From contig OY725505.1 of the NCBI GenBank assembly GCA_963281255.1, forward strand, positions 310,001-374,000: 64,000 bases of DNA, in the 5' to 3' direction. The position numbers and the translations under genes were made by a program. Positions within the stretch are counted from its first letter, which is position 1, and the number at the start of each line of letters is the position of its first letter. Of this stretch, positions 29,091 through 50,876 are shown in pieces. The notes beneath the pieces are model-generated. The model searched no databases, was not told the DNA's origin, and worked only from the letters and a program-made list of their open reading frames with translations. The stretch comes from Aphrocallistes beatrix. Taxonomy: Eukaryota; Porifera; Hexactinellida; Sceptrulophora; Aphrocallistidae.

Positions 29091-29266
29091 CTCAGAGTTC
29101 AGTTGATTTATCTTTTACAAACTAAATTACCATTATTTATACACTATCATTCTTCTCTTTATATTCTACTAAACATCTTACGCTAAAGTTCAAACATTAC
29201 TTTGAAATTTTTCCTCAGTGTGATAGCATCACATGCTATCAGAATTACTTGAGCTTTTTACTAGTA

Positions 29267-29458
29267 TATGGAGTGTAATTAATATGGTGTCACTCTAATA
29301 TGGAGTGTAATTATTATGGTGTCACTCTAATATGGAGTGTAATTAATATGGTGTCACTCTAATATGGAGTGTAATTATTATGGTGTCACTCTAATATGGA
29401 GTGTAATTATTATGGTGTCACTCTAATATGGAGTGTAATTAATATGGTGTCACTCTAT
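29267..29458. repeat. Six copies of a 32-bp tandem repeat
   Basis: Unit built of TATGGAGTGTAATTAATATG plus GTGTCACTCTAA. Units alternate between AATTAATATG and AATTATTATG. Each unit contains complementary GAGTG and CACTC, so single strands can form a series of small hairpins. Confidence 0.93.
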
Positions 29459-30505: not shown

Positions 30506-31873
30506 TTACAGAGATATCTTGCTGAATGCTTTCTTCCATGCATTTAGTGTCTCTTTAGTCATTAATGTTACAATCAGAAGGATTGCCCAGGAAGAAAACG
30601 CAAAATATCGAATAAAAGTGAATATTGGAGAAGAATATGCTCTGTATTCAGCTGGACAAATATCCTCCGGGGCTCGGAATATTTTCAAATTATTCTGAAC
30701 TGTTAAACATGACCAAAACTCCTCTAACTTAAAAGCAAATTTTTCCTCTAAAATAATGGCGTATGAGGCTTCGGCGAACAAAACAGAAGCTAAGATACCT
30801 AGACATATGGCAAATATAATCAAGCGAACCTCAAAACCATTTAGTTTAATAAGATTCCGACTTTCCATTACGATCAATTTCCGCATTTGAAGTTTGTAAA
30901 GAGTAACCGCAATAATAGTGAGAGGAACAGCTATTGAAAACAGGAAAGGAAAACCGTTGAAAATCACTAAACCGATCACATCTAATGGGTAAGGATGTTG
31001 AGGTGTACGGTAAAAAGAATATTTTTTGAAGATAATTAAATAGATGGAAGGTACTAGGAGTGGGACAGAAAATGATATAATGGCTTCTATGGTGAATAGA
31101 ATGATTCGAGACTTTCCAGGTTCAGTAATTCGTAGTTGAGGCCAAAATACAGTTATCAAGAGATTAACAGTGGCGCAAAGAAACCAAATGTAAAAGGAAA
31201 AAATTGAAAAATATATTACAAATCCCACAACGCTTACATATACTGGAGGATCTCGTGATACAATAAGGTAATCTTCATTTCTCTGTTGACAGAAAAAGTT
31301 ATAAGGACCTGATATTGAAATAGCTGCGAGGAAAAAACTGTATACAACCGCATTAATGAACATAAACAAATAGTTTATCCGTGGGATTTTGAAGATTCCT
31401 GGAACTTTAAGTATAACGATAAGCCCAAATAAGGAAAAGACAAAGTCAGCAACACCAATGAAAATAGTGATAACTCTATACGCGATGTAATAACTCTCTC
31501 CATACGGATGCCATGTACCACATATAGGTACACACATGGTACAGTTAAACACGTAGTTAGTTGGACATGTTATTGTAATGTTAGAATGAACTACAGATTC
31601 ATTTCCTGAACGACATTTTGAAGGTAAAATAGAGGTGTTAGTGGTTATTGTTTGATTCAACAGTTCAACATATGGCCTAGAACAGTTGGTTGGAACTGAA
31701 CCGATTATGCTCCCAACAATTAGTGGCCCAGTCAAACCTATCCAAATTATTAAAATAGCCAGTACTAGAAGAATAGTATATATGACCTGGAATAACCTCT
31801 TGTGCCGTTTCCTTCTCGCTGCAAAATTGTTCAATACTTCTCTAGTCAGTGTAGATACTTGTACTTGTATCAT
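30506..31873 (-). CDS. Cys-rich-ectodomain seven-helix receptor, family A member 1
   Basis: An intact 455-residue single-exon frame. A basic N-terminus (RRKRHKR, 20-26) precedes a signal anchor (28-58). An ectodomain (60-130) follows with six N-glycosylation sequons and the family signature CPTNYVFNCTMCVPICG. Seven hydrophobic segments follow (about 133-155, 167-187, 210-240, 255-280, 297-325, 348-372, 420-442), and a loop with two more Cys precedes the last helix. The Cys-rich ectodomain on a seven-helix body, and the blocks FKIPRINYLFMF and IYFSIFSFYIWFLCATVNL, recall class F (Frizzled-like) receptors; this is weak inference. It is very similar to the gene at 35899-37254. Confidence 0.72.
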   Translation of the reverse strand: MIQVQVSTLTREVLNNFAARRKRHKRLFQVIYTILLVLAILIIWIGLTGPLIVGSIIGSVPTNCSRPYVELLNQTITTNTSILPSKCRSGNESVVHSNITITCPTNYVFNCTMCVPICGTWHPYGESYYIAYRVITIFIGVADFVFSLFGLIVILKVPGIFKIPRINYLFMFINAVVYSFFLAAISISGPYNFFCQQRNEDYLIVSRDPPVYVSVVGFVIYFSIFSFYIWFLCATVNLLITVFWPQLRITEPGKSRIILFTIEAIISFSVPLLVPSIYLIIFKKYSFYRTPQHPYPLDVIGLVIFNGFPFLFSIAVPLTIIAVTLYKLQMRKLIVMESRNLIKLNGFEVRLIIFAICLGILASVLFAEASYAIILEEKFAFKLEEFWSCLTVQNNLKIFRAPEDICPAEYRAYSSPIFTFIRYFAFSSWAILLIVTLMTKETLNAWKKAFSKISL

Positions 31874-31997
31874 AATTGAATTTGAATTTTATTTGATAAA
31901 TAGAGAATGCGTAGTATAGTCAAATTAATTTACTACAATATATATGGATACATTTTTATGGCCTACTTTTTTGGCTAATTAATAAATACAGGCAAAT

Positions 31998-32011
31998 GTA
32001 ATATTATATTA
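31998..32011 (-). promoter_or_regulatory. AT-rich upstream motif of receptor 30506-31873
   Basis: On the minus strand this reads TAATATAATATTAC, about 125-140 bp before the ATG. About 30 bp closer to the gene, minus-strand AAAAAAGTAGGCCAT (31958-31972) is the second element of the module. Confidence 0.5.
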
Positions 32012-32529
32012 TGACTCTGTTGCAGTTTTTCTTGTAATGTAAGTGTTAAATGTGAGGCATATTGTAGATTAAATCGCTTAGATCAGCGCAGTCAGTACTT
32101 ATTCTACAGCAAGCACAATAGTTATTACATGTGTATGTTAGGTATAGTTCAGACTAATCTCTATACTGGCTCTAACGAGTCACTAGTCCACCAATTCAAA
32201 TCGTTATCTATTCTTTGTGCTAGTGTGTCCTCAGCGTTGTCATATCTGTCACTGCCACATACAAAGAAATAGATTATATTTTGGCCTCAGCACGCCTTTG
32301 CATTAGTACATGGCTCCTCCCTTGCAGTCAATAATGTAATTTAGCTATTTAATATAATAAATTTGTAAAGTGCTACATAATCCTAAAGCTTAAAAGAAGC
32401 CTTTATGAGCTTTAATAGAACAAATAGTCTATTAATTGCGAAAATCTATTTTAATAACTAAAAATCATGTGTTTAAAAAAAGCTTCTATTTGTAATATTA
32501 ACAACTAAAGATACGCGAAATGTATGAAA

Positions 32530-32674
32530 AAACCACTTATATCCTTCGAAATCTGATCAACCGTGCTAGAACGCTTGTTGTGAATATACACGTAGTATGT
32601 CTCCAGTCCTGCAATAACAGAAACCGCTCACAAGAGAATGATAGAGAAGTTATTGTAGCAACCACTGAACTTTA
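32530..32674 (+). pseudogene. C-terminal relic of a family A receptor
   Basis: The plus strand encodes LINRARTLVVNIHVVCLQS..., then a decayed NRNRSQEND and VIVATTEL, ending in TAG. This is the tail of the receptor at 37704-39179. Nothing of the remaining protein is upstream, so it is the last trace of a deleted plus-strand receptor, or a piece carried along in a partial inverted duplication. Confidence 0.7.
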
Positions 32675-32974
32675 GCGTAAGAAGTTCCTACCAACTGTTT
32701 TGAGTAGTTAATTTAATCGAAGTCCTTACTCTCAATTGTTTGAGTTTATGTGTTGTATATTCTTTTTTTCATTAAATAATATGTTTTCCCAACTACACTA
32801 TTGTAATTATCGGTTTCTTAGACTTAATTATCGGTTTCTTTGACTTAGTACCTAGCTCTGAGAGCAAGAGTTAAATATTTTCCCAACTCACCATCCTTAA
32901 ATGTGATTCTTATACTGTATGTTATGAGATATATGTAAGCAAACCTCCTTACATCACAAGAAGAACTATTTCAA

Positions 32975-33030
32975 TAATATAATATTACATTTCCCATTGT
33001 TCAATTAATCATTAAAGTAGGCTATAACAA
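32975..33030 (+). promoter_or_regulatory. Two-part upstream module of receptor 33117
   Basis: TAATATAATATTAC (32975-32988) and ATTAAAGTAGGCTATAACAA (33011-33030), followed by an AT-rich TATA-like stretch and the ATG at 33117. The same order and spacing occur before most other family A genes. Confidence 0.55.
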
Positions 33031-33116
33031 GATATATTATATATATTGCACTAAAATGAATTTGGGTATAGTTGTGTATTTTCTATTTGACTTGTAAATA
33101 AAACTCAAATTCAAGG

Positions 33117-34568
33117 ATGATATCACCACAGACTAAAGAAGTATTGAGCAAGTTTGCAGCTAGAAGGAAACGATACAAGAGGTTATTCCAGGTCATATAT
33201 ACCATTTTTCTAGTACTGGCTATTTTTATAATTTGGATTTGTTTAATTGTACCAATAACTGTGGGGGTACTTTACAAATCACCCCCAACTAATATTACTA
33301 GACCATACGTTGAACTATTGAACAACACAATAACCACTAACACCTCGATTTTACCTCAAAGATGTCATTCAGGGAATGAATCTGCACTTCATTCTAACAT
33401 TACAATAACATGTCCAACTAACTACGTGTTTAACTGTACCATGTGTGTACCTATATGTGGTCTATGGCATCCGTATGGAGAGAGTTATTTCACCGCGTAT
33501 AGAGTTACCACGATAATCACGAGTGTCGCTCAGTTCATCTTTTCTTTCATTGGATTTATCGTTCTTCTTAAAGTTCCAGGGAGTTTCAAAGTCCCACAGA
33601 TAAATTATTTGTTTATGTTCTTTAATGCGGTCATTTTTAATTTCTTACTCGCCGTTATTGCGATATCGGGTCCTTATAACTTTTTCTGTCAACGTCAGGA
33701 TGAAGGCTACTCCATTGTAGCACAAGATCCTCCAGTCTATGTAAGCGTTGTCGGATTTGTAATGCATTTTGCATATTTATCATTCAACTTTTGGTTCGTT
33801 TGTGCCACTGTTAATTTGATGATTATCGTATTATTTCCTCAGCTGCGTATTACTGAATCTCGCAAATCTCAAATAGTCCTATTTACCATAGAGGCAACAA
33901 TATCATTTGCATTTTCCCTCATAATACCATCCATCTTTCTAATTTTCTTCAAACATTATTCTTTTTTCCGTACTCCACACCATCCTTACCCAGCTGATCC
34001 GATCTTTGCAATGGTATTCATTGTTGTTCCTTTGTTACTTTCAACCGCGGTTTCTCTCACCATTATTGTAATTGCCCTTTACAAATTGCAAATGCGGAAA
34101 TTAAGCTTCATAGAAAATAAAGAAAATGCTATTAAGCTAGAAGGTTTTGAAATTCGTTTGATTATATTCACAGTCTGTTTGGGTTTAGTAGCTTTTATTG
34201 CCTTATTCGAGGGTTCTTATTATAAAATTTTTAATGCCATTTTCGAATTCAAGTTGGAAGAATTTTGGTCATGTTTAACAGTTCAGAATAATTTGAAAAT
34301 GTTTCACCAGGTCTCGAGTGCTGTCTGTCCAACAGAATACCGAGCATTTTCATTTCCAATATTCAATTTCATTCGTTATTTTGCGTTAACCCTATGGACC
34401 TTTTTTCTGCTAGTAATACTGACAACAAAAGAGACACGAGAAGAATGGAAGAAAATATTCGCTAAATTATTTCATGTTGTTTCCCGCACTAAAAACTACT
34501 TCACTCTAGATTCCAGGCCTGAACTTGAGGAAGGTGGAGGAAGCACTTCTGGAGAGTCAAAAGTTTAG
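33117..34568 (+). CDS. Cys-rich-ectodomain seven-helix receptor, family A member 2
   Basis: An intact 483-residue single-exon frame with the family plan: basic N-terminus, signal anchor, glycosylated ectodomain with CPTNYVFNCTMCVPICG, seven helices. It is distinguished by VTTIITSVAQFIF in the first helix and a longer C-terminal tail ending in a Glu/Gly/Ser-rich stretch (ELEEGGGSTSGES). Its closest relative is the stop-containing gene at 40085-41518, in the opposite orientation. About 1.9 kb including the 3' flank is shared between the two. The tail could bind cytoplasmic partners; nothing specific is visible. Confidence 0.72.
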   Translation: MISPQTKEVLSKFAARRKRYKRLFQVIYTIFLVLAIFIIWICLIVPITVGVLYKSPPTNITRPYVELLNNTITTNTSILPQRCHSGNESALHSNITITCPTNYVFNCTMCVPICGLWHPYGESYFTAYRVTTIITSVAQFIFSFIGFIVLLKVPGSFKVPQINYLFMFFNAVIFNFLLAVIAISGPYNFFCQRQDEGYSIVAQDPPVYVSVVGFVMHFAYLSFNFWFVCATVNLMIIVLFPQLRITESRKSQIVLFTIEATISFAFSLIIPSIFLIFFKHYSFFRTPHHPYPADPIFAMVFIVVPLLLSTAVSLTIIVIALYKLQMRKLSFIENKENAIKLEGFEIRLIIFTVCLGLVAFIALFEGSYYKIFNAIFEFKLEEFWSCLTVQNNLKMFHQVSSAVCPTEYRAFSFPIFNFIRYFALTLWTFFLLVILTTKETREEWKKIFAKLFHVVSRTKNYFTLDSRPELEEGGGSTSGESKV

Positions 34569-35898
34569 ATAGGGGATTCCTACTCCATTGTATTGTCATG
34601 TAATTTTTTCAAGTCTTTTCCCCCAATTGTCTTCATTGTGTTTATTTAGTGATTGTCTGTCTTTACTTTAAAGCTAGGACTACCTCTTGGCTTGAGTCTA
34701 TACAAGTCATTCAGGAGGATAATGAGAGACTAGTAAGCTACAAGATGAGATTTATGTATATTAATTGTATTATCATGTCGCTAACTTTGTTTATCTGATT
34801 TTTAATCTCAATTACGTATGTGAATTATAAAAAACATTATGTTGAATATACAAATTCTTCACATTATTATACAAGCACGCTTTCGAAAATATGTTGATTT
34901 GTGAAGTTTGCAAACTTTGACTCTGACTGAGTTCTCGTCAATATTTCCTTGTTCCATACTTCAACAAAGAAACCAGAAATCTAGGTATATACACTAGATT
35001 TCTGATTTCTTTGTTGTTACAGTTAAAACATTTTAAATGCCGTATATTATTATTTTTCATTAAATAATATGTTTTCCCAAATACACTATAATTATAGGTC
35101 TCTTAGACTATAGTACCTAGCTCAGAATTAAAATAATTATCTCCCCAACACACCATATTTACATGTGATTCATACAAGTATAATGTACATCATAAGCAAA
35201 CCTCCTTATGTTACGCTCTAGTGGGAATCCAACGCCCAATTAAGGTACCTCAATTATTAGTGATAACAAAGTAGGATTTAATGTAGGATCCAATCGATGC
35301 AGAATCTCCTCAGGTTTCAGATGACTTGGTCAATCGTGATACGAGTTTTTTTCGAGCTATAGTTGTTCACATTCTCCCAAATTTTAGGGGTGTTTGACAC
35401 TTAAGATTAGACAGTATGGTATATTTAAAAAAGATATTCAGACGTTCATTTAAATACATGATTTTTAGTTCTTAAAATAGATTTTTCGCCGGTAATAGAC
35501 TCTTTTGCGTCTATTAAAGACCACAAAGGCTTCTTCTAAGCTTCTAAGGTTGATTGCGTAGCATTTTAAAATTCATTATATTGATAGCCAAATTATAGTA
35601 TTGATTGCATTTATCAGGGATTGCGTAGGGGGGAGGGAGCTTGTGCTCATGCAAAGACTTGATGTGGTGACTTTGCCCATGCAATAACAATTCACAGCAT
35701 GTTTCATGAATTTAGAACACAATATCTATATAAATAACATCACACTCATTAAATTATAAAATCTAGAGCATAGGGCCTGATATAAAGTAGTTAAACACAA
35801 AAAAATGGGTAGGGGTTCACTGATTTCACATTTAGGTGTTGATACAATAACTTCACTCTCTTGATAGCTTTTATAATTACGAAAACAGGACAATATAG
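34569..35898. other. Intergenic between receptors
   Basis: The left part (to about 35000) is the 3' flank of the receptor before it and is repeated in reverse at 39640-40084. The right ~240 bp repeats the 3' flank of the receptor at 30506. No gene. Confidence 0.6.
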
Positions 35899-37254
35899 TT
35901 ACATAGGTATATTCCTGAATGCTTTCTTCCATGCATTTAGTGTCTCTTTAGTCATTAATGTTACAATCAGAAGGATTGCCCAGGAAGAAAACGCAAAATA
36001 GCGAATAAAAGTGAATATTGGAGAAGAATATGCTCTGTATTCAGCTGGACAAATATCCTCCGGGGCTCGGAATATTTTCAAATTATTCTGAACTGTTAAA
36101 CATGACCAAAACTCCTCTAACTTAAAGTCAAATTTGTCTTCCAAAATAATTGCGTATGCGGCTTCAGTGAATAAAACAAAAGTCAAGATACCCAAACAAA
36201 TGGCAAATACAATCAAGCGAATTTCGGAACTCTTTAATTTGATAAGATTTCGATTTTCCATCACGATCAATTTCCTAATTTGCAGTTTGTAAAGAGTAAC
36301 CGCAATAATAGTGAGAGGGACAGCTATTGATAACAGGAAAGGAATACCATTGAAAATCACTACAGCGATCACATCTAATGGGTAAGGATGTTGAGGTGTA
36401 CGGACAAAAGAATATTCTTTGAAGATAATTAAATAGATGGAAGGTACTAGGAGTGGAACAGCAAATGATATAATGGCTTCTATGGTGAATAGAATGATTC
36501 GAGACTTTCCAGGTTCAGTAATTCGTAGTTGAGGCCAAAATACAGTTATCAAGAGATTAACAGTGGCGCAAAGAAACCAAAAGTAAAAGGAAAAAAATGA
36601 AAAATATATTACAAATCCCATAACACTTACAATGACTGGAGGATCTCGTGATACAATAAAGTAATCTTCATTTCTCTGTTGACAGAAAAAGTTATAAGGA
36701 CCTGATATTGCAATAACGGCGAGGCAAAAACTGTATAAAACTGCAATGAAGAACATAAACAAATAGTTTATCCGTGGGATTTTGAAGATTCCTGGGACTT
36801 TAAGTATAACAATAAGCCCAATTAAAGAAGAGACAAAGTCAGTAACACCAATGAAAATAGTGATAACTCTATACGCGATGAAATAACTCTCTCCATACGG
36901 ATGCCATAGACCACATATAGGTACACACATGGTACAGTTAAACACGTAGTTAGTTGGACATGTTATTGTAATGTTAGAATGAACTACAGATTCATTCCCT
37001 GAATGACATTTTGAAGGTAAAATAGAGGTGTTAGTGGTTATTGTTTGATTTAATAGTTCAACATAAGGCCTAGAACAGTTGGTTGGAACTGAACCGATTA
37101 TGCTCCCAACAATTAGTGGCCCAGTCAAACCTACCCAAATTATTAAAATAGCCAGTACTAGAAGAATAGTATATATGACCTGGAATAACCTCTTGCGTCG
37201 AGTCCTTCTAGTTTCAAACTTTTCCACTACTCCTTTAGCTTGTAGAGATATCAT
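35899..37254 (-). CDS. Cys-rich-ectodomain seven-helix receptor, family A member 3
   Basis: An intact 451-residue frame, nearly identical to 30506-31873 through the ectodomain and most helices. Differences are concentrated in the first 20 residues (MISLQAKGVVEKFETRR) and in helices 1-2. The 3' flank is also shared, so the two are recent direct duplicates. It has an upstream module at about 37332-37394 on the minus strand (AAGTAGGCTATAAC, then TAATATAATATTAC). Topology as for the other members. Confidence 0.72.
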   Translation of the reverse strand: MISLQAKGVVEKFETRRTRRKRLFQVIYTILLVLAILIIWVGLTGPLIVGSIIGSVPTNCSRPYVELLNQTITTNTSILPSKCHSGNESVVHSNITITCPTNYVFNCTMCVPICGLWHPYGESYFIAYRVITIFIGVTDFVSSLIGLIVILKVPGIFKIPRINYLFMFFIAVLYSFCLAVIAISGPYNFFCQQRNEDYFIVSRDPPVIVSVMGFVIYFSFFSFYFWFLCATVNLLITVFWPQLRITEPGKSRIILFTIEAIISFAVPLLVPSIYLIIFKEYSFVRTPQHPYPLDVIAVVIFNGIPFLLSIAVPLTIIAVTLYKLQIRKLIVMENRNLIKLKSSEIRLIVFAICLGILTFVLFTEAAYAIILEDKFDFKLEEFWSCLTVQNNLKIFRAPEDICPAEYRAYSSPIFTFIRYFAFSSWAILLIVTLMTKETLNAWKKAFRNIPM

Positions 37255-37703
37255 TCTTGAATTAGAACTTTATTTACAAGTCAAATAGAGAATATACATA
37301 GGTATTCAAATTAATTTAGTGCAATATATATGTATATCTTGTTATAGCCTACTTTAATGGTTAATTAAATACTGGGAAATGTAATATTATATTAGAAATA
37401 CTATGAAGTAATTTTGCTCGTGATATAAAGGGATTTGCTTACATACATATATCTCATGACATACGCTATAAGAATCACATGTAAAGATGGTGTGTTGGGA
37501 AAATATTTAACTTTAGCTCTCTCCTATTACCCTCCTGAGCTAGGTACTATAGTCGAAGAAACCGATAATTACAATAGTGTAGTTGGGAAAACATATTATT
37601 TAATGAAAAATAAGAATATACAACACATTTAAAAACTCAAACAATTGAGAGTAAGGACTTCGAACTAACTACGTAAAAGGACAATTGGTAGGAACTTCTT
37701 ACA
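37255..37703. other. Intergenic between two minus-strand receptors
   Basis: Contains the upstream module of the receptor at 35899-37254 and the 3' flank of the next receptor; the whole segment recurs inverted at about 32670-33110. No independent gene. Confidence 0.6.
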
Positions 37704-39179
37704 CTAAAGTTCAGTGGTTGCTACAATAACATCTCTATCATTCTCTTGTGAGCGGTTTCTATTCCAGGACTGGAGACATACTACGTGTATATTCACAACA
37801 AGCGTTCTAGCACGGTTGATCAGACTTCGAAGGATATTAGTGAATATTTTTTTCCATACATTTCGCGTATCTTTAGTTGTTAATATCACAAACAGAAGGA
37901 TTGCCCAGGAAGAAAACGCAAAATAGCGAATAAAGGTGACAATTGGAAAGAAAAACGCTCTATATTCAGGCAAGCAAATATCACTCTGAATTCTAAATAT
38001 TTCAACATTATTTTGAACTGTCAAACGTGACCAAAATTCTTCTAACTTCAAATTGAAAATTGGATTCAATATGTTTGAATAAGAAGCCTCAATTATCGCA
38101 ACAGATGCTAGGACACCTATACATATGGCGAATATAATGAAGCGAATTTCAAAGCCCTTCAGCTTAACTTTAGGTCGATTTTCCATAAAGATTAATTCCC
38201 GCATTTTCAGTTTGTAAATACTAATTGCGATGATGGTGAGAGAAAAGGCTGTCAAAAGCAGAAGAGGAACAATAATGAACACAAGTGTAGCGATTATTGA
38301 AATTGTGAAGGGTTGAACTGGTGTACGAAGGAAAGAATATCTTTTGAAGATGATTAAATAGATAGAAGGTATCAGGAGGGGGATACCAAATGATATAATG
38401 GCTTCTATGGTGAATATAATTATTCGAGACCTTCTAGATTCAGTTATACGTAGCTGAGGCCAAAATACAATTATCAGGAGATTGATTGTGTTGCAAAGAA
38501 ACCAAAAATAAAATGATAAAAATGCGAGATGGGATACAAATCCCACAACGCTTACAATGACTGGAGGATCTCGTGATACAATGGAGTAATTTTCATTTCT
38601 CTGTTGACAGAAAAAGTTATGAGGACCTGATATTGAAATAATGGCGAGGCAAAAACTGTATACAACTGCAATGAAGAACATAAACAAATAGTTTATCCGT
38701 GGGATTTTGAAGACTCCTGGGACTTTAAGTATAACGATAAGCCCAATTAAAGAAGAGACAAAGTCAGCAACACCAATGAAAATAGAGATAACTCTATACG
38801 CGATGTAATAACTCTCTCCATACGGATGCCATAGACCACATATAGGTACACACATGGTACAGTTAAACACGTAGTTAGTTGGACATGTTATTGTAATGTT
38901 AGAATGAACCACATATTCATTTCCTGAACGACATTTTGAAGGTAAAATAGAGGTGTTAGTGGTTATTGTGTGGTTCAACAGTTCAACATAGGGCCTAGAA
39001 ATGTTGGTTGGGGTTGGCTTGAATAGTAACGCCACAACTATAGTTCCACTCCAACTCACCCAAAGTATAAAAATAGTCACTAGTAGAATAATGGTGTATA
39101 TGACCTGGAATAGCCTCTTGTGTCGATTCCTTTTAGCTTCCAACTTGTTCAATACTTCATTAGTCTCTGGAGAATTCAT
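37704..39179 (-). CDS. Cys-rich-ectodomain seven-helix receptor, family A member 4
   Basis: 491 residues from the ATG at 39179 (MNSPETNEVLNKLEAKR), chosen because it aligns with the starts of the other members; the frame stays open further upstream but that part has no counterpart. The ectodomain has CPTNYVFNCTMCVPICG as usual. The last-loop pair is SRLTVQNN...ICLPEYR, so the Cys of the usual WSCLTVQNN is replaced by Arg, and the disulfide partner may be lost. The long tail (about 450-491, with HVVCLQSWNRNRSQEN) is shared only with the relic at 32530. Confidence 0.7.
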   Translation of the reverse strand: MNSPETNEVLNKLEAKRNRHKRLFQVIYTIILLVTIFILWVSWSGTIVVALLFKPTPTNISRPYVELLNHTITTNTSILPSKCRSGNEYVVHSNITITCPTNYVFNCTMCVPICGLWHPYGESYYIAYRVISIFIGVADFVSSLIGLIVILKVPGVFKIPRINYLFMFFIAVVYSFCLAIISISGPHNFFCQQRNENYSIVSRDPPVIVSVVGFVSHLAFLSFYFWFLCNTINLLIIVFWPQLRITESRRSRIIIFTIEAIISFGIPLLIPSIYLIIFKRYSFLRTPVQPFTISIIATLVFIIVPLLLLTAFSLTIIAISIYKLKMRELIFMENRPKVKLKGFEIRFIIFAICIGVLASVAIIEASYSNILNPIFNLKLEEFWSRLTVQNNVEIFRIQSDICLPEYRAFFFPIVTFIRYFAFSSWAILLFVILTTKDTRNVWKKIFTNILRSLINRARTLVVNIHVVCLQSWNRNRSQENDRDVIVATTEL

Positions 39180-40084: not shown

Positions 40085-41518
40085 CTAAACATTTGATTCT
40101 CCAGAAGTGTTTCCTCCACTTTTCTCAATTCCAGGCCTGGAATAAACAGTAAAAACAGCCTTTTTAGCACGAGTAACAACATTGAATAATTTAGTGAATA
40201 TTTTCTTCCATTCTTCCCGTGTATCTTTTGTTGTCAGTATTACTAACAGAAAGAAGGTCCATAGGGTTAACGCAAAATAACGAATGAAATTGAATATTGG
40301 AAATGAAAATGCTCGGTATTCTGTTGGACAGATAGCACTCGAGACCTGTTGAAACATTTTCAAATTATTCTGAACTGTCAAACATGACCAAAATTCTTCT
40401 AACTTGAATTCGAAAATGGTATTGAAAATTTTATAATAAGAACCCTCGAATAAGGCAATAAAAGCTACTAAACCCAAACATACTGTGAATATAATCAAAC
40501 GAATTTCAAAACCTTCTAGCTTAGTAGCATTTTCTTTGTTTTCTATGTAGATTAATTTCCGCATTTGCATTTTATAAAGGGCAATTACAATAATGGTGAG
40601 AGAAACCGCGGTTGAAAGTAACAAAGGAACAACAATGAATACCATTGCAAAGATCGGATCAGCTGGGTAAGGATGGTGTGGAGTACGGAAAAAAGAATAA
40701 TGTTTGAAGAAAATTAGAAAGATGGATGGTATTATGAGGGAAAATGCAAATGATATTGTAGCTTCTATGGTGAATATAACTATTTGAGATTTGCGAGATT
40801 CAGTGATACGCAACTGAGGAAATACTACGATAATCATCAGATTAACAGTGGCACAAACGAACCAAAAGTTGAATGATAAATATGCAGAATGCATTACAAA
40901 TCCGACAACGCTTACATAGACTGGAGGATCTTGTGCTACAATGGAGTAGTCTTCATCCTGACGTTGACAGAAAAAGTTATAAGGACCCGATATCGCAATA
41001 ACGGCGAGTAAGAAATTAAAAATGACCGCATTAAAGAACATAAACAAATAATTTATCTGTGGGACTTTGAAACTTCCTGGAACTTTAAGAAGAACGATAA
41101 ATCCAATGAAAGAAAAGATGAACTGAGCAACACTCGTGATTATCGTGGTAACTCTATACGCGATGAAATAACTCTCTCCATACGGATGCCATAGACCACA
41201 TATAGGTACACACATGGTACAGTTAAACACTTAGTTAGTTGGACATGTTATTGTAATGTTGGAGCGAATCACAGATTCATTCCCTGAACGACACTTTGAA
41301 GGTAAAATTGAGGTGTTAGTGGTTTTTAGTGTGTGGTTCAACAGTGAAACATAAGGCCTAGAAGTGTTCGAAATGGAAGGACTGGATAAACTGCCTCCGA
41401 CAATTAAAGGTCCGGCCAGACCTAACCAAATTACAAATATAACAGCAACTAAAAGAATGGAATATACAATCTGGTACAACCTCTTGTGTTGAGTCTTTCT
41501 AGCTTGTGAAGGACACAT
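40085..41518 (-). pseudogene. Family A receptor with an in-frame stop
   Basis: A full-length family A frame of 478 codons from the ATG at 41518 is interrupted only by TAA at 41231-41233. There every other copy has TAC in the signature CPTN-Y-VFNCTMC, a single C-to-A change on the coding strand. Downstream of the stop the frame is intact and close to 33117-34568, with a full seven-helix region and Gly/Ser-rich tail; upstream, the N-terminus (MCPSQARKTQHKR) is more divergent and resembles the frameshifted 42999 gene. Either a young pseudogene or one read through at the stop. An initiation at the later Met would lose the signal anchor. Confidence 0.75.
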
Positions 41519-42998
41519 CTTTGAACTTTGCTGTGAATTACTCGAATAAAATATTTCTCGCAATTTATTATTTCTGACTTGTTGTTTTATTTGCAGAGTG
41601 AAATATACTTAGTATATCCTCGAATCAAATTTCATCATATATACTAAACGAATATATCAGTTATGTAATCCACTCTAAGGTTGCAATATTATATTACAAA
41701 AAAAGATATATCACTGGTGTAATAACTTATAACATACGACTAGCAAGTACCTCGAGAGGATAGTTTAAGTTACTTGATTGGAACTAATTAGATACCATCA
41801 AAGAAAATTTTAACACTCAATAGTGTACTCTTCAGAAAAAAAAATTTTTATTAGCGTAATATAAAAACACGGGATTCTTAATTAAATTGTCCAATAACAT
41901 ATTAGGTAAGTAAAATTATTCAGTATTACAAAACTTAACCGATATTAGATAAGATCAGTATGTAACATATTTGAATAACAATTGAGTAATTTTATGCGGT
42001 ACAAATTTATCTTATCATCAATGGAAACATAAATATCATTTGTCCACCCTACAGTAACAGCTAAATGATTTATATAAACTCTCCCTTAGATTGAGTATAC
42101 AGTCAGGGTCGCTTATTATGAACCCGCTTAATATGAACATTCTTTTATTATGAACTAACCTCCTGGTCCCAATTTCATTTTTAGATATGATTTGTATTGA
42201 ATCAAGTTTGCTTAATATGAAGTATTGCTATTATTGAGATTTTTTATCAAGGTTCGCAATAAGCGACCCTGACTGTACGTACTATATTTTACCACCAACC
42301 TTACGTTCTTAAAACATACCACGTTTTGATCTTAAAATGCTCCAAATCTAAGCACTTCAAATTCTCGAAGTATAATAATATTTGCTGTCTTTATATCAAA
42401 AGTATAATGTATGAACAAATTAGAAAAATGTCATTTGTTATGGTCAGAAAAAGACTCCAAAAATTAGACCTTTTAGTGATCTTAATACAAAGTTATCTAA
42501 TTTCGACCAGTTTATTTGTGCAGAAGTTTTTTTTAACAATTTTCAAATACATAAGTCGTTTTTCCATTATTTGCCCTTAGATACAAAAGTTTCATGATAA
42601 TTATTCTTTGGTGGTTGACTCTACGTAATATTACGTCTCTCAATCTAAATTCTATCATTTCTCAAATATCATGTTGCAAGAATGCTGAAAGAATGATTAC
42701 AACCTAAAAGTACATAGAAAGTGCAATAACAATACATACTAATTTATTTAAATATTACATGTAATACAAATTGTAATATTTTTTCTAAAGGAAAGCGACA
42801 TTTAAAATTTTTATAAAACGACACAACAATGAGCTAGAACCCATAACATCCTTCCCAAATTATTCATCAAAATAGGCTGTAAACAATATTGAAGTATAAA
42901 TACTGAATATTTCACCATATTCAACTTAAGGATAAAAGAACGAATTTAATAATACGAAATAATAGCAGAAATAGTACTTTCCATACCAAAGTTTGAAG
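41519..42998. other. Intergenic between divergent receptors
   Basis: Includes the motif GTAATATAATATTG on the minus strand (41684-41697) for the left gene, a MITE at 42100-42275, and for the right gene the element ATCAAAATAGGCTGTAAACA (about 42867-42886). No other gene seen. Confidence 0.6.
42100..42275. mobile_element. MITE, CAGTCAGGGTCGCTTA family
   Basis: A 176-bp TA-flanked element, ends CAGTCAGGGTCGCTTATTAT and GCAATAAGCGACCCTGACTG. The terminal inverted repeats are near perfect over about 20 bp. Related copy at 21336. Confidence 0.85.
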
Positions 42999-44446
42999 AT
43001 GGCATCTTCACAAGCAAAAGAGGTCTTAAACAAGTTTGCAGCTAAAAGGACTCAGCACAAGAGGTTATTCCTGATAGTCTATACCATTATTTTAGTAGTT
43101 GCTATTTTTATGGTTTGGGTAAGTTTACTTGGACCTCTGGTAGTGGGGGGGCTATCAAGTTCTTCCCTCAAAAACATTTCAAGACCCTATGTTAGACTTT
43201 TGAACGGCAAAATTACTAATGACACCTCGATTTTACCTCAAAATGTCGTTCAGGAAATGAATCTATGATTCACTCCAACAATACAATATCATGTCCAACT
43301 AACTACGTGTTTAACTGTACCATGTGTGTACCTATATGTGGCCTATGGCATCCGTATGGAGAGAATTATTTCATTACTCACAGGGTGGTTAATATTCTCA
43401 CGAGTGTCGTTGACTTTATCTTTTGCTTCATTGGACTTATCGTTCTTCTTAGAGTGCCGGGAAGCTTCAAGTTCCCACAGATAAACTATTTGTTTATGCT
43501 CATTAATGCGGTCATATTTAGTTTCTTATTCGCTGTTATGTCTATCTCAGGCCCTCGTAACTTTTTCTGTCAACAGCGAAATGAAGGTTACTCCGTCGTA
43601 TCACAAGATCCTCCTGTATACGTAAACATTGCAGGATTTATGGTACATTTTGTATATTTATCGTTTAACCTTTGGTTTCTTTGTGCCACTATCAATCTCT
43701 TGATAGTTGTATTTCGGCCTCAACTACTTATTGCTAAATCTCGCAGGTTTCAAATAGTTCTATTCACCATAGAAGCCATCATATCACTTGGTATACCTCT
43801 TTTGTTACCGTCCATCTTTTTAATCAGCTTCAAGAATTATTCTTTCGAACGTGTACCAGACATTCCTTACACAAGCGACTCGATTGCTGCTGTGATATTC
43901 ATAATTTTCCCATTACTGCTTTCAACTGCTGTTTCTCTCACTGTTATTGCAATATCAATTTACAAACTGCAAATGCGGAAATTAATCTTTATAGAAAATA
44001 AGAAAGATTCTACCAAGCTGAAGAGCTTTGAAATTCGCCTAATAATATTCGCCATCTGTTTAGGTTTCATCGTTTTTATCGTACTACTCCAGGCTACTCA
44101 TGAAGAACTAATGGTCGCCATGTTTGATTTCAAACTGGAAGACTTTTGGTCATGCTTGACGATTCAGGAAAATTTGGAAATCTTCCAAGCATCGAATGAG
44201 ACTTGTCCTACAGAATATAGAGCATACGCATCCCCAATATTCATTTTAATTGGTGATATTCTGTTATCAGCATGGACAATCCTTCTGTTAGTGATGCTGA
44301 CAACTCAAGAGACACGAGATGCATGGAAGAAAATTCTCACGAATATATTTTTAAATCCGTTTATTCGTTCTGTTTCCCGTTTTAAACAACAATGTTCTCG
44401 GCCTATAATAGCAGTTCGGGAGGAAATGATTGAGGCTGACAATTGA
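42999..44446 (+). pseudogene. Family A receptor broken by a 1-bp frameshift
   Basis: The frame from the ATG at 42999 (MASSQAKEVLNKF) runs through the signal anchor to about 43235, then slips. TTACCTCAAAATGTCGTTCA here corresponds to TTACCTTCAAAATGTCGTTC in other members, one base fewer, so the first frame ends at a TGA at 43266-43268. The correct frame resumes as 43265-44446 and encodes the rest of the ectodomain, all seven helices and a basic tail ending REEMIEADN. The body is rather divergent from other copies, so the gene was probably functional for a long time. A sequencing error cannot be excluded. Confidence 0.75.
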
Positions 44447-45352
44447 AACAAATACCTTTAGATAGAAAACTTAAATTAATTTTGCTCAAAGGTCCTTAGA
44501 TTTTTTTTTAGTTTGAGTTATTTAGTATATTGTTTATTCTGTTTTCAGTTATTCAAACATGCTCTAATACTGTAAGAACATTTATTGCTTTTATTGATTC
44601 TTTCAGTAATTATTTAGTAGTCAGTTATAGAAAGTACAATCTATTCGGAAACTGAAAATACAGACGGTATTGCTAGTCCATATCAAGAACATGACATACG
44701 ACTATTTGGGCCTAGGATATATATATGTGTGTGTGTGTGTACAGGGGTGCATACAGCCCTAGTTCTCAGAGGAGATAAAAGCTATAAATATTTTCCGGGG
44801 GACAGGTATATGCAACCCTGCGTGTGTAAAATTTTGAAAGAAGACAACTCCTGAGGCAGGGCCAAATATGCAAATTCAAGCTACTTCCTGAGTTTATAAC
44901 TTATGCTGGTCCATGAAATCCAAGGCCATAAGATCGAACCCCGGACAAATGTCCCGATGCTCCCTTCCTCCCGGGACCACCCCTGAGTTCACCTCGTGCG
45001 AGGAGCAGCCCTGACTTAAACATTTGAATTTCAAATTGAGATACAAACTACCAGTGTTCGACAATATTAAAATTTGGTAAGGTGGCACCTATCTTTTAAA
45101 GGTGATACGTATCTTTACCACCTTTAATTATTTCTGGGAGCTAAGAACCACCAACTTTTAAATGCGTTATACAAATAAACTAAAAATAAAAATGTTTACC
45201 AAATTTTTTAGTTTTTATCCTCAATTATTCTTTTTTCGACAAAAAATGTATCCTACATCAACCTTACCCTGTTCGTCTGATCGCTGCACTAGTGTTCATT
45301 ATTAATCAGGTGCTTGTAACCATGGTTTTATCTAAGATTTTTTAGTTTTTTG

Positions 45353-45517
45353 GCGGTGATAAAAGTTATATGGCACCCAAACAGGGGTTTATCTTGTAAT
45401 TCCAGGGGTGATGGCAACCCGACGCCAAAATCGAATCACACTGCAAGCACCTTGGCTCCTCCGACGATACCAGATTGGCACTTATAAGTGCCTGCCGAGC
45501 ACCTAGATAAACCCCTG
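45353..45517. mobile_element. Dispersed repeat with CAGGGGTTTATCT inverted ends
   Basis: Reverse-orientation copy of the repeat at 27195-27358. Inverted ends CAGGGGTTTATCTTGTAATT and GCACCTAGATAAACCCCTG, plus the shared GGTGATAAAAGTTATATGGC flank. Confidence 0.6.
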
Positions 45518-45651
45518 CTTGGAACCAGGGTTATGCTTGTATACAGATCGTTCCAAATATCAATCCGATATATTTTCGTACAACTAAATCGATAAAAACA
45601 ACAGTGGCGGCACGAGGGGTGAGGCCAGGTGGGTACAGGCGACCGGTATGG

Positions 45652-45788
45652 TGGAAATAGTTCGACTTTCCAAAAAAGGAAATAGTTCGAATAAAAAACA
45701 CCATTAATCGTAACGATAAAAAGTCGAACTATTTCCTAAATCCGCAATTCGAACAATTTCCTTTTTCGAAAAGTCGAACCATTTCCGC
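45652..45788. repeat. Foldback repeat with GAAATAGTTCGA modules
   Basis: GTGGAAATAGTTCGACTTTC at one end and GAAAAGTCGAACCATTTCCGC-like at the other, with two further inner TAGTTCGA / TCGAACTA modules. It is non-coding. Confidence 0.6.
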
Positions 45789-46115
45789 ATTACCCAGGCG
45801 ACCAAATTTCAAAACAACATAAATCGTGACAAATCATCAATTAATGTGCACCTATCATCCCATTGTTGCTACTAGACGAAAACTATCTACCTTAAAAAGA
45901 CAACAGCGTCTTACGCTTCTAAATAATTGCTTGGTTGGAACATATTAATCCCACTAATATCCTCAATCATAGTTTAAAGTACAAATGCAAGATGTAATGT
46001 CTACTAGTAACATGTTCATTTTAGCATGTGATTCTTATAGTGTAAGATTGTAGGTCACGGGATATAAGCAAGCCTCTTTTATACGTAAGAAAGTTATAAT
46101 ATGCACGCCACATAG

Positions 46116-46178
46116 TAATATAATATTACACTTCGAAGCATTTGGAACATTATCTATCAAAATAGGCAATCATAACAC
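46116..46178 (+). promoter_or_regulatory. Two-part upstream module of receptor 46251
   Basis: TAATATAATATTAC (46116-46129) and ATCAAAATAGGCAATCATAAC (46156-46176, shown in part), then ACATATATACGTATATATAA and the ATG at 46251. The same layout precedes 49494. Confidence 0.55.
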
Positions 46179-46250
46179 ATATATACGTATATATAAAATG
46201 AAATTTAGGTTAATACTTTATATTTCTCATTAAAATCGACCAACTTAAAG

Positions 46251-47633
46251 ATGATATCGCCACAAACTAAAGAAGTGTTGGACAAGTTCGCAGCTAAAAA
46301 GGCTCGAATCAAGAAGTTATTCCAGGTTATGTATGCCATTCTTCTAGCCGTGGCTATTTTTATAATTTGGGTAGGTTTAATTGGACCAATAGCTATGGCG
46401 TTGTTTTACAAGCCAAAACCAACCAATAATACTAGGTCCTATGTTGAACTATTGAACCACACAATAACCGCTAACACCTCTATTTTACCTTCAAAATGTC
46501 GTTCAGGAAATGAATCTGTAGTTCATTCTAACACTACAATAACATGTCCAACTAACTACGTGTTTAACTGTACCATGTGTGTACCTATATGTGGTCTATG
46601 GCATCCGTATGGAGAGAGTTATTTCATCGCGTATAGAGTTATCACTATTTTCATTGGTGTTGTTGAATTTGTCTCTTCTTTATTTGGGCTTATTGTTATA
46701 CTTAAAGTTCCAGGAATCTTCAAAATCCCACGGATAAACTATTTGTTTATGTTCATTAGTGCGGTTATATACAGCTTCTTCCTCGCCATTATTGCAATAT
46801 CAGGTCCTTATAACTTTTTCTGTCAACAGAGAAATGAAGATTACTTTATTGTATCACGAGATTCTCCAGTGTATGTAAGTGTTGTGGGATTTGTAATAAA
46901 TTTTGCACTTTTTTCTTTTTTTCTTTGGTTTCTTTGCGCCACTGTTAATCTCTTGATAATTGTATTTTGGCCTCAACTACGAATTACTGAACCTGGAAAG
47001 TCTCGAATCATTCTATTCACCATAGAAGCCATTATATCATTTGCTGTTCCCCTTCTAATACCTTCCATTTATTTAATTATCTTCAAAAAATTTTCTTTTC
47101 GCCGTACACCTCAACATTCTTACCCATTAGATGTGATCGGTGTAGTGATTTTCAACGGTGTTCCTTCTCTGTTGTTAATAGCTGTTCCTCTCACTATTAT
47201 TGCGGTTACTCTTTACAAAATGAAAATGCGGAAATTGATCGTAATGGAAAACCGGAATCATATTAAACTAAATGGTTTTGAGGTTCGCTTGATTGTCTTT
47301 GCCATATGTTTAGGTGTCTTAGCTTCTGTTTTGTTCGCCGAAATCTCATACAACTTTATCTTGAAAACTAAATTCGATTTTAGGCTAGAGGAGTTTTGGT
47401 CATGTTTAACAGTTAAGGATAATTTGAAAATATTCCGAGCAGGGGAGGTTATTTGTCCAGCTGAATACAGAGCATATTCTTCTCCAATATTCACTTTTAT
47501 TCGTTATTTTGTGTTTTCTTCCTGGGCAATCCTTCTGATTGTAACATTAACAACCAAAGAGACACGAAATGCATGGAAGAAAACATTCAGCTCTATACCC
47601 CTGCTTCTAACTAACCATAAGCTCCCCTTTTAA
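46251..47633 (+). CDS. Cys-rich-ectodomain seven-helix receptor, family A member 7
   Basis: An intact 460-residue single-exon frame. It has the signal anchor (about 25-55), ectodomain with CPTNYVFNCTMCVPICG and multiple sequons, seven helices, and a last-loop Cys pair (WSCLTVKDN...VICPAEYR). The 3' end encodes LLLTNHKLPF. It is a tandem duplicate of 49494-50876: start, end and flanks match closely. It differs from that copy in helix 1-2 and the loop before the ectodomain. No catalytic or G-protein motif can be named. Confidence 0.72.
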   Translation: MISPQTKEVLDKFAAKKARIKKLFQVMYAILLAVAIFIIWVGLIGPIAMALFYKPKPTNNTRSYVELLNHTITANTSILPSKCRSGNESVVHSNTTITCPTNYVFNCTMCVPICGLWHPYGESYFIAYRVITIFIGVVEFVSSLFGLIVILKVPGIFKIPRINYLFMFISAVIYSFFLAIIAISGPYNFFCQQRNEDYFIVSRDSPVYVSVVGFVINFALFSFFLWFLCATVNLLIIVFWPQLRITEPGKSRIILFTIEAIISFAVPLLIPSIYLIIFKKFSFRRTPQHSYPLDVIGVVIFNGVPSLLLIAVPLTIIAVTLYKMKMRKLIVMENRNHIKLNGFEVRLIVFAICLGVLASVLFAEISYNFILKTKFDFRLEEFWSCLTVKDNLKIFRAGEVICPAEYRAYSSPIFTFIRYFVFSSWAILLIVTLTTKETRNAWKKTFSSIPLLLTNHKLPF

Positions 47634-47954
47634 GATGTACAAAAGGTCTCCAGAAATAATTGTGCAGAAGTTCATTATCTGAAATGTAATATCTGTGAAT
47701 CCTAACTAATGTTTTGTATATAACTACTTTATATCAGGTCCCTACATTCCAAATTGTTTGAGTTATTAAGTTTGTTATTTAGTTGTATTCTTTATTCATG
47801 CAAGCATAGCAGGGTATCATACAGCTCTCCAGATATACGCTCCTAATCTCAAACCCATAAATTTTTCATACGCCTAAATCGATAAATAGCATTATAATGG
47901 AGGGTAAATTATGCATTATTCTGGATTTTCACGCTCCTAAACACTTTGAAGGGG

Positions 47955-48235
47955 TTTCGGAATAAGACCTAAATTAATTTCGAAGTAGGAATAAGACCTA
48001 AAACGTGCGGAGTAGGAATAAGACCTAAAATTGGAAGGAGAGAGAAAGTGAGCATTTTAGGTTTGAAATAGTGTTCAATTGAGTGAGAAAGTGACATTTT
48101 TATTCTTAAGGGGGGTTACTGTGTGGGATTTTAGCTCTTATTCCTACTTCGCACGTTTTAGGTCTTATTCCTCTCCTTTGCACGTTTTAGGTCTTATTCC
48201 TACTTCGAATTAGGTCTTATTCCAGCGACTCACTT
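47955..48235. repeat. Inverted cluster of TTTTAGGTCTTATTCC repeats
   Basis: GGAATAAGACCTAAA units in the left half and TTTAGGTCTTATTCCTACTT units in the right half, about 280 bp overall, so it can fold back on itself. Shares its unit with 30075-30225, which suggests a mobile foldback element. Confidence 0.7.
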
Positions 48236-48597
48236 TGAGGCTTAAAAATCATACGCCTAAAGGAGCGCCTTGCACTCCTAGATAATCCCTTGAAGCATAG
48301 GGTTACATGGGCCCATGGGGAATACTAGGAAAATTGTCTTTTGCTTTAGCATATATTCACATGAGCAAGAATGTACCAAAACAAATTCTGCGATCAAATT
48401 CAATTAACGTTGTTAATGCTATTATATAGGCCTTAATTTTTAAAAACTTATTGTCCATTGAAAGTTTATCTTTGGACCGCCCCTGAGTTCACAAGGTTAT
48501 GAGCAGTCTTGACATACTAATCTAACAAATCAGATGTGTTTGATGTGTTTCGGGGACCAAGATGTCTATCTTCCAAAGAAAAAAAAAGTTTCCAAAA

Positions 48598-48742
48598 TGT
48601 TGTGGCATAGTGCGAGGGCCTTTCGGTTTGGTCAGTCGGATACCAAATCCAACTGGACCGTATTCAATGTTGCCACGTTTATTAAGATGGCGTTGTTGGT
48701 CCGTAGTAGCCATTGTGTCGCTGTCTGGAATGTTGGGGGCAT
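48598..48742 (-). pseudogene. Duplicated fragment of the PTP-PEST last exon
   Basis: The minus strand encodes APNIPDSDTMATTDQQRHLN... and GFGIRLTKPKGPRTMPQHFG, nearly identical to the final ~50 residues of the PTP-PEST gene ending at 51442. Only the last ~145 bp of the gene is present, with no catalytic part, splice site or promoter. It was carried here by the tandem duplication that also produced the two flanking receptors. Confidence 0.85.
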
Positions 48743-49360
48743 AAAGTGCTCTCGTACTATAAGGACATTTATTACTTGTATTGATGCTTTCAGTAATTAT
48801 TTTGTAGTCAGTTATAGAGAGTACAGTTTCTTCAGAAACTGAAAATACAGACGGTATTGCTAGTCCATAGAGCATGACATATGATGACTATTTGGGCCTA
48901 GAATATATACAAGTGTGTACAGGAGCTGATACAGCTCTAGATCTAAGAGGGGGCTAAAGAGGGGCCTGGGGTGCTTGCCCCCAGAAAACTTTTTAAATCT
49001 TAGATGCTCAAATATCGATATACAGCTATTGTTGTTTCCTAGGGAAAATATAATATCAGACTATAGTGGAAGAAAAATGTAATTTGGATATATATTTACG
49101 TAGACTCAATTAACATAATTTTGGGGTTTAGTTGCAACCTATAAGTTCCACAGCTTCCTCCACTGCTCCATTCTCCCAGCACCACGCACCCCCCAGGTAC
49201 CCACACTTGGCGCCTATGGTATGCATATATCTTCAATCATAGTTTAAAGTACGAATGTAGGATGTATTGTCTATTCTTATAGTGAGTGCAAGATTGAAAG
49301 TCATGAGATATAAGCAAGCCTCTTTATACGTAAGAAAGTTATAATGTGCTTGTCTCATTG

Positions 49361-49420
49361 TAATATAATACTACACTCGAAGCATTTGGAACATTATCCA
49401 TCAAAATAGGCCATTATAAC
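49361..49420 (+). promoter_or_regulatory. Two-part upstream module of receptor 49494
   Basis: TAATATAATACTAC (49361-49374) and TCAAAATAGGCCATTATAAC (49401-49420) followed by a TATATATAAA stretch and the ATG at 49494. Confidence 0.55.
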
Positions 49421-49493
49421 AAATATGTATATATAAAAAATGAAATTTAGATCAATACTTTATATTTCTTACTAAAATCGACCAAATTTAAAG

Positions 49494-50876
49494 ATGATAT
49501 CGCCACAAACTAAAGAAGTGTTGGACAAGTTCGCAGCTAAAAAGGCTCGAAACAAGAAGTTATTCCAGGTTATGTATGCCATTCTTCTAGCCGTGGCTAT
49601 TTTTATAATTTGGGTAGGTTTAATTGGACCAATAGCTATGGGGTTGCTTTTCAAGTCAAACTCAAACAATATTACTAGGCCCTATGTTGAACTGTTGAAC
49701 CACACAATAACCACTAACACCTCTATTTTACCTTCAAAATGTCGTTCAGGGAATGAATCTGTAGTTCATTCTAACATTACAATAACATGTCCAACTAACT
49801 ACGTGTTTAACTGTACCATGTGTGTACCTATATGTGGTACATGGCATTCGTATGGAGAGAGTTATTACATCGCGTATAGAGTTATCACTATTTTCATTGG
49901 TGTTGCTGACTTTGTCTCATCTTTTATTGGGTTAATCGTTATACTTAAAGTTCCAGGAATTTTCAAAATCCCTCGTATAAACTATTTGTTTATGTTCATT
50001 AGTGCAGTCATATACAGTTTTTTCCTCGCAGCTATTTCAATATCAGGTCCTTATAACTTTTTCTGTCAACAGAGAAATGAAGATTACCTTATTGTATCAC
50101 GAGATCCTCCAGTCATTGTAAGCGTTGTAGCATTTGTAATGTATTTTGCAATTCTTTCTTTTTTCCTTTGGTTTCTGTGCGCCACTGTTAATCTCTTGAT
50201 AACTGTATTTTGGCCTCAACTACGAATTACTGAACCTGGAAAGTCTCGAATCATTCTATTCACCATAGAAGCCATTATATCACTTTCTGTCCCACTCCTA
50301 GTACCTTCCATCTATTTAATTATCTTCAAAAAATATTCTTTTGTCCGTACACCTCAACATCCTTACCCATTAGATGTGATCGGTGTAGTGATTTCTGTAG
50401 TTCTTCCTTTCCTGTTTTTAATAGCTGTTCCTCTCACTATTATTGCGGTTACTCTTTACAAACTGAAAATGCGGAAATTGATCGTAATGGAAAATCGGAA
50501 TCTTATCAAACTAAATGGTTTTGAGGTTCGGTTGATTATATTTGCCATATGTCTAGGTATCTTAGCTTCTTTTTTGTTTACCGAAGCCTCATACGACAAT
50601 ATTGTGAAAAAAAAATTTAATTTTCAGTTAGAGGAGTTTTGGTCATGTTTAACAGTTCAGAATAATTTGAAAATATTCCGAGTTCTAAATGATATTTGTC
50701 CAGCTGAATACAGAGCATATTCTTCTCCAATATTCACCTTTGTTCGATATTTTGCGTTTTCTTCCTGGGCAATCCTTCTGATTGTTATATTAACAACCAA
50801 AGAGACACGAAATGCATGGAAGAAACCATTAAGTTATATACCCCTGCTTCTAACTTACCGTACGCTCCCCAGCTAA
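49494..50876 (+). CDS. Cys-rich-ectodomain seven-helix receptor, family A member 8
   Basis: An intact 460-residue single-exon frame. Plan as in the other members; the first 50 residues are almost the same as in 46251-47633, whereas helices 1-3 and the region around CGTWHSYGESYY resemble 30506-31873, so the gene may be a conversion mosaic. It lies about 570 bp from, and converges on, the 3' end of the PTP-PEST gene. Confidence 0.72.
   Translation: MISPQTKEVLDKFAAKKARNKKLFQVMYAILLAVAIFIIWVGLIGPIAMGLLFKSNSNNITRPYVELLNHTITTNTSILPSKCRSGNESVVHSNITITCPTNYVFNCTMCVPICGTWHSYGESYYIAYRVITIFIGVADFVSSFIGLIVILKVPGIFKIPRINYLFMFISAVIYSFFLAAISISGPYNFFCQQRNEDYLIVSRDPPVIVSVVAFVMYFAILSFFLWFLCATVNLLITVFWPQLRITEPGKSRIILFTIEAIISLSVPLLVPSIYLIIFKKYSFVRTPQHPYPLDVIGVVISVVLPFLFLIAVPLTIIAVTLYKLKMRKLIVMENRNLIKLNGFEVRLIIFAICLGILASFLFTEASYDNIVKKKFNFQLEEFWSCLTVQNNLKIFRVLNDICPAEYRAYSSPIFTFVRYFAFSSWAILLIVILTTKETRNAWKKPLSYIPLLLTYRTLPS

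Follow-up and report, generated by a model that had tools for sequence, protein, structure and literature searches.

A tandem array of probable class F-like receptors with a signal anchor and a short linker-like ectodomain in the glass sponge Aphrocallistes beatrix

The stretch of DNA considered here, hereafter the window, comprises the 64,000 nucleotides (nt) from position 310,001 to position 374,000 of contig OY725505.1 of the glass sponge Aphrocallistes beatrix (assembly GCA_963281255.1), and between its positions 30506 and 50876 lie eight copies of one receptor gene in the strand order - + - - - + + + (Table 1). These genes probably form a tandem array of recently duplicated, eight-helix, class F-like receptors, each made up of a signal anchor, a short glycosylated linker-like ectodomain and seven further helices. 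A first-pass annotation of the window had described eight frames of about 450-490 codons; the eight copies are indeed where it placed them, but only six are intact single frames (451-491 codons). The motif that it had called invariant, CPTNYVFNCTMCVPICG, is exact in seven of the eight copies, the reading of copy 5 being interrupted by a stop codon inside the motif itself. Copies 2 and 5 constitute inverted arms of 1167 nt that are 96% complementary, and a ninth copy, with one in-frame stop, is found 2.4 Mb away on the same contig, where it reads CPTNYVFNCTMCVPTCG at the position of the motif. The absence of introns holds for the six intact copies, each of which is a single frame, but it is an unremarkable trait for a glass sponge, because the Aphrocallistes vastus paper lists 12,409 transcripts with a single exon, alongside a total of 19,578 genes.

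Table 1. Receptor copies and homogenised tracts in the window (positions are those of the window; ECL3, extracellular loop 3).
Feature	Position	Strand	State
Receptor copy 1	30506..31873	-	intact, 455 codons
Receptor copy 2	33117..34568	+	intact, 483 codons
Receptor copy 3	35899..37254	-	intact, 451 codons
Receptor copy 4	37704..39179	-	intact; 491 codons when started at the homologous ATG, the open frame continuing to 39383; first Cys of the ECL3 pair missing
Receptor copy 5	40085..41518	-	broken, in-frame TAA at 41231-41233 within the motif; inverted, 96% like copy 2
Receptor copy 6	42999..44446	+	frame-shifted near 43223-43268; frame 43265-44446 passes Pfam PF01534
Receptor copy 7	46251..47633	+	intact, 460 codons
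Receptor copy 8	49494..50876	+	intact, 460 codons
Homogenised tract of copy 1 (codons 96-133), class F linker-like core	31475..31588	-	six intact copies identical at synonymous sites
Homogenised tract of copy 8 (counterpart of the copy 1 tract)	49767..49880	+	

Hydropathy places eight hydrophobic helices in each of the six intact copies, the first preceded by a basic N-terminus of 22-26 residues and followed by a loop of 88-91 residues with 5-6 N-glycosylation sequons per copy, after which come the other seven helices. This arrangement agrees with the earlier description of a basic N-terminus, a signal anchor and seven further helices, and in all six copies the ectodomain is followed by a full set of seven. 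Judging from the hydropathy and the basic residues, the first helix would act as a signal anchor at the N-terminus, leaving the ectodomain on the outer side of the membrane; the alternative of a cleaved signal peptide was rejected by inference, given that the helix comes after 22-26 basic residues and that W44 is kept in all 28 family members with letters at that position. The cysteine pair reported before the last helix is complete in five of the six intact copies and incomplete in copy 4, which has Arg in place of the first cysteine.

The family extends well beyond the window. Across the genome (100.5 Mb in 28 contigs), for which all counts of places are lower bounds, copy 1 as query retrieved at least 49 places at expect values (E) up to 10, and three divergent members, searched at E up to 0.001, retrieved at least 32, 50 and 58; merged, these amount to at least 65 distinct places (about 65), of which 51 have a stop-free match and a single open frame of 430 codons or more. 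The merge omitted short fragments, such as the 3' pieces at C16:679-690k, C2:182837 and C6:76123, as well as C10:3879013 (E 0.7) and weak matches in longer frames at C16:1330841, C7:2197119 and C7:703801. A second and larger receptor array, at C16:655115-698814, contains 14 places with several broken copies, and a 3' piece is repeated four times within it at 687824-690322. The earlier notion of a local cluster thus describes the eight copies in the window correctly but not the family, whose spread over some 65 places makes the cluster one local burst. The comparisons that follow rely on a set of 26 members (A2) drawn from the 30 loci L029-L058, omitting L036 and L058 for their stops and L046 and L047 for their overlap with L037 and L043, and on a 30-member set that adds L065-L068. 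As a separate observation on the array, a 158-nt piece of a neighbouring gene's region occurs, between copies 7 and 8, at 48585-48742 and again at 51460-51617 with 96% identity, and this repeat is possibly a trace of the duplication unit.

For the seven-helix part, the faint class F flavour that had been noted earlier finds support. Frame 43265-44446 of copy 6 matches PF01534 (Frizzled) with 36.9 bits, the cut-off being 22.3, over positions 11-320 of the 322 in the profile; PF01534 matches at any level occur in 3 of the 26 members and, genome-wide, at six places, three of which exceed the cut-off, namely copy 6 and the loci L059 and L060. L059 is a Frizzled that retains the cysteine-rich domain, and L060 (C7:4912211-4913209) has Smoothened as its best PDB match (E 2.2e-22). 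A class F profile built from five PDB chains together with L059 and L060 was run on 216 sequences, comprising the 26 members, 17 members of another orphan family, and reversed and shuffled versions: its top 15 hits were all members of the receptor family (15/26), above all 190 decoys and unrelated sequences, with the first decoy at E 0.31. Finally, hhalign matched the 30-member profile to class F over nearly the whole length at 98.2% (P 2.8e-14, 341 columns), and at 95.8% when class F was represented by PDB chains only, with controls of 1.1% for reversed class F and 0.9% for the other orphan family. Neither 7tm_1, 7tm_2, 7tm_3 nor Dicty_CAR matched any of the 26 members at E up to 10, and PF05462 (Dicty_CAR) is absent from the 18 Pfam families listed for them at that threshold.

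The ectodomain had not been recognised from any named family; it can now be said, from its aligned cysteines, to resemble the linker of class F receptors, the Frizzled cysteine-rich domain being absent. By hhalign, five positions coincide with cysteines of Smoothened: C103, C114 and C118 in the linker, where the C-x3-C spacing is shared, C195 in extracellular loop 1 and C389 in loop 3; C406 comes close to the next Smoothened cysteine without coinciding with it. In Smoothened these cysteines pair linker to linker, linker to loop 1 and in loop 3. C103 is present in 29 of the 29 members with letters there and C114, C118 and C195 in all 30, and selection accounts for the conservation of these four positions of the linker and loop 1 across the family. 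No Fz domain (PF01392) was found in the 26 members scanned, its one match in the genome being L059. Past helix 7 the strict KTXXXW motif occurs in none of the 30 members; TxxxW stands at its place in 13 of them, 12 of which belong to subgroup I (12 of the 13 in that subgroup that reach the C-terminus), and the strict motif is likewise missing from the Smoothened chain and from L059, which reads STFRKW there. The cysteines of transmembrane helix 3 (TM3) and extracellular loop 2 (ECL2) are both present in the four members of subgroup II and both absent from the other 26, a pattern that points to their coupled loss outside subgroup II.

Several results weigh against the class F assignment. The seven window copies other than copy 6 have no PF01534 match, and indeed no Pfam match at E up to 10, and several of the class F profile scores carry a large bias correction. 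The narrower window group drops from 94-95% against class F to 25-27% once L060, a sequence from the same genome, is left out, and to 25.0% without both L059 and L060. At equal profile size, subgroups II and IV lie nearer to class B than to class F (95.8 vs 77.5 and 83.6 vs 52.8, respectively). The best PDB match of the family profile is the adhesion receptor L3 (E 4.6e-4), followed by Frizzled-5 (E 0.038), CALHM6 (E 0.18) and Smoothened (E 3.2). AlphaFold2 models of the six intact copies are unusable as structures (mean predicted local distance difference test score, pLDDT, 41.1; predicted template-modelling score, pTM, 0.28), and their list of eight long helices, although it agrees with hydropathy, carries no weight at this quality. 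Furthermore, in an unrooted tree of three groups with long branches, several end branches exceeding 1.4 changes per column, the family (96/95), class F (100/98) and class B (100/99) separate from one another, with the family outside the class F clade in which L060 nests. It is because of the class B scores, the dependence on L060 and L059, the best PDB match and the tree that we call the seven-helix part class F-like, a designation based on sequence comparison, rather than a Frizzled or a Smoothened.

The same results bear on the competing explanations. Divergent class B receptors, adhesion- or secretin-like, that have lost a large ectodomain would fit the match to L3, the class B scores of subgroup II and of the 30-member profile (96.7%), and the TM3 and ECL2 cysteines kept in subgroup II; yet the class B match covers 171 columns as against 328-341 for class F, the latter including the linker and the C-terminal end, and the window group at equal profile size reaches 94.3% when compared with class F but 85.7% for class B (one class B comparison used three of the six fetched sequences, the equal-size comparison all six). 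Subgroups I and III are also nearer to class F (94.1 vs 92.2 and 81.5 vs 33.2). Since PF00002 has no match at E up to 10 among the 26 members, and its 117 matches in the genome include not one of the 65 family places, we consider a class B origin unlikely, and the plain adhesion-receptor reading was rejected on the missing PF00002 match and the shorter class B profile match. That within the class B/F radiation the family forms a lineage of its own, distinct from both Frizzled and adhesion receptors, with the linker shared by descent, is conceivable but doubtful: the three separate groups in the tree and the different leanings of the subgroups speak for it, whereas an unrooted, long-branch tree of three groups, sampled without amoebozoan or other sponge sequences, cannot establish a separate lineage. 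It seems very improbable that the proteins are not receptors at all but eight-helix transporters or channels; the number of helices and the weak PDB matches, to CALHM6 as given above and to OSTC as the only hit of a PDB sequence search with the six intact copies (E 0.45 and 1), might suggest as much, but Pfam scans of the window copies and the 26 members yielded no transporter or channel family above cut-off and the only full-length matches are to classes of G-protein-coupled receptors (GPCRs), and the transporter or channel reading was rejected for want of any such family match in Pfam.

The invariance of the motif calls for a different explanation from that of the cysteines. Within the array the ectodomain is indeed the most conserved region, as had been claimed, with a mean identity among the six intact copies of 0.94 in codons 102-133 compared to 0.56-0.83 in other regions; the accompanying claim that helices 1-3 vary is right in that they fall below the ectodomain (0.77, 0.81 and 0.72), but helices 5-6 (0.64-0.65), the anchor helix (0.62) and the two ends (0.56-0.57) vary more. 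Among the same copies, none of the 350 synonymous site comparisons in codons 96-133 differ, the corresponding value outside the core being 0.302. The best 96-nt window has at most 4 variable columns, a number reached in none of 2000 codon shuffles (shuffle minimum, 11), and the longest identical run lies inside the core for 29 of 36 copy pairs and outside it for 7 (300 shuffles per pair). Outside the array this identity disappears: the synonymous rate of the core is 0.573 against the ninth copy (0.584 outside the core) and 0.906 against L038 (0.826 outside). Because the identity of the core DNA is limited to the array and lost in comparison with dispersed paralogues, the invariance of the motif appears best explained by gene conversion.

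We regard as rather improbable the alternative that the motif owes its invariance to strong selection, whether acting on the nucleotides themselves or favouring a single binding partner, and not to gene conversion. The protein core does evolve more slowly than the rest against dispersed paralogues, its nonsynonymous rate being 0.070 against the ninth copy (0.251 outside the core) and 0.298 against L039-L042 (0.451 outside), as such selection would have it; the synonymous sites, however, are identical within the array yet diverged against the ninth copy and L038, and the broken copies 5 and 6 both carry the homogenised tract apart from single differences. Selection alone was rejected as the cause on the contrast between 0/350 in the array and 0.573 against the ninth copy, although a smaller, real constraint on the protein core remains. 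The earlier idea of a common partner for the invariant ectodomain is accordingly weakened, the lack of synonymous differences reflecting homogenisation, without being emptied of content, given that smaller constraint. More generally, the array cautions that motifs found to be invariant in young gene arrays are not automatically evidence of functional constraint.

If the receptors are class F-like, a mechanism can be outlined whose topology, disulfide pairing, ligand site and G-protein coupling we infer. The anchor would hold the N-terminus inside, and two disulfides, one within the linker and one between the linker and extracellular loop 1, would form a cap over the helix bundle, as they do in Smoothened; a small ligand would then most likely enter the pocket made by the bundle and the linker cap, and the signal would most likely be passed to heterotrimeric G proteins instead of Dishevelled. 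This ligand site is proposed because the receptors lack the Wnt-binding domain, which leaves a Wnt-type ligand without a known docking site.

Comparison with known systems illustrates both the affinities and the peculiarities of the family. With Smoothened and Frizzled (PF01534) it shares the seven-helix profile match, the aligned linker spacing and loop-1 cysteine and, in subgroup I, the TxxxW past helix 7, but it differs from them in its lack of the cysteine-rich domain and of the strict KTXXXW, in its extra N-terminal helix and in its separate clade. L060 likewise pairs Smoothened-like seven helices with an ectodomain that is short and lacks the Fz domain, but unlike the array it sits inside the class F clade, and its N-terminal signal looks ordinary. 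Adhesion receptors (class B2, PF00002) resemble the family through a partial profile match over helices 1-5, the family lacking both their PF00002 match and their large ectodomain. The Dictyostelium Frizzled/Smoothened-like receptors sans cysteine-rich domain (Fsc), portrayed in PMC10445921 as having lost that domain and as having a short N-terminus and a lineage-specific expansion, are similar in these described traits, and differ in that the sponge array belongs to an animal and has an anchor helix.

The biological setting lends these receptors additional relevance. Glass sponges are reported (PMC10280926, PMC5684314) to have lost wnt, wntless, dishevelled and frizzled A while keeping one Frizzled, frizzled B, which lacks the first residue of KTXXXW; papers on these sponges also give genome sizes of 61-80 Mb and a G+C content of 36%. 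The Oopsacas paper asks what pathway compensates for the missing Wnt components, and its authors suggest G proteins as the route by which the remaining Frizzled acts. In the A. beatrix genome we found no Wnt (PF00110) candidate, although the control gave no match either, so that absence is not shown, and one Hedgehog-signal match above cut-off (E 2.3e-5). A literature search covering part of the literature retrieved no report of a class F expansion without the cysteine-rich domain in sponges. A large set of Frizzled-like receptors devoid of this domain would offer concrete candidates for the compensating pathway in glass sponges, and, if the class F-like reading is true, the expansion of a class F bundle without the Wnt-binding domain, described for social amoebae in part of PMC10445921, would also exist in an animal. 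Only tentatively can one go further and envisage a third class B/F lineage, with an anchor helix and a linker-only ectodomain replacing the Frizzled domain, that expanded to about 65 places and carries G-protein signalling in an animal without Wnt.

Some further observations concern other receptors and the surroundings of the array. At C7:4856096-4858766 a 7tm_2 match immediately precedes a PIP5K kinase match of the same strand, the two possibly forming a GPCR-PIP kinase, a type of protein said in PMC12716839 to occur among animals only in sponges, and C4:4.9-5.9 Mb contains a dense cluster of adhesion-receptor (PF00002) matches. Outside the array, the window holds a second family of single-frame multi-helix proteins at 22505-23749(-), 25521-26720(+) and 27939-29090(-), with no Pfam match above cut-off and no PDB match, for which a search with the copy at 25521 at E up to 10 gave at least 56 places genome-wide. 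Also in the window are a frame at 8365-11916(-) that unites SET, WW and SRI domains and corresponds to the C-terminal part of a SETD2-like protein, and, at 29266-29457, a minisatellite whose 32-nt units consist of ATATGGAGTGTAATTA and a near-inverted half.

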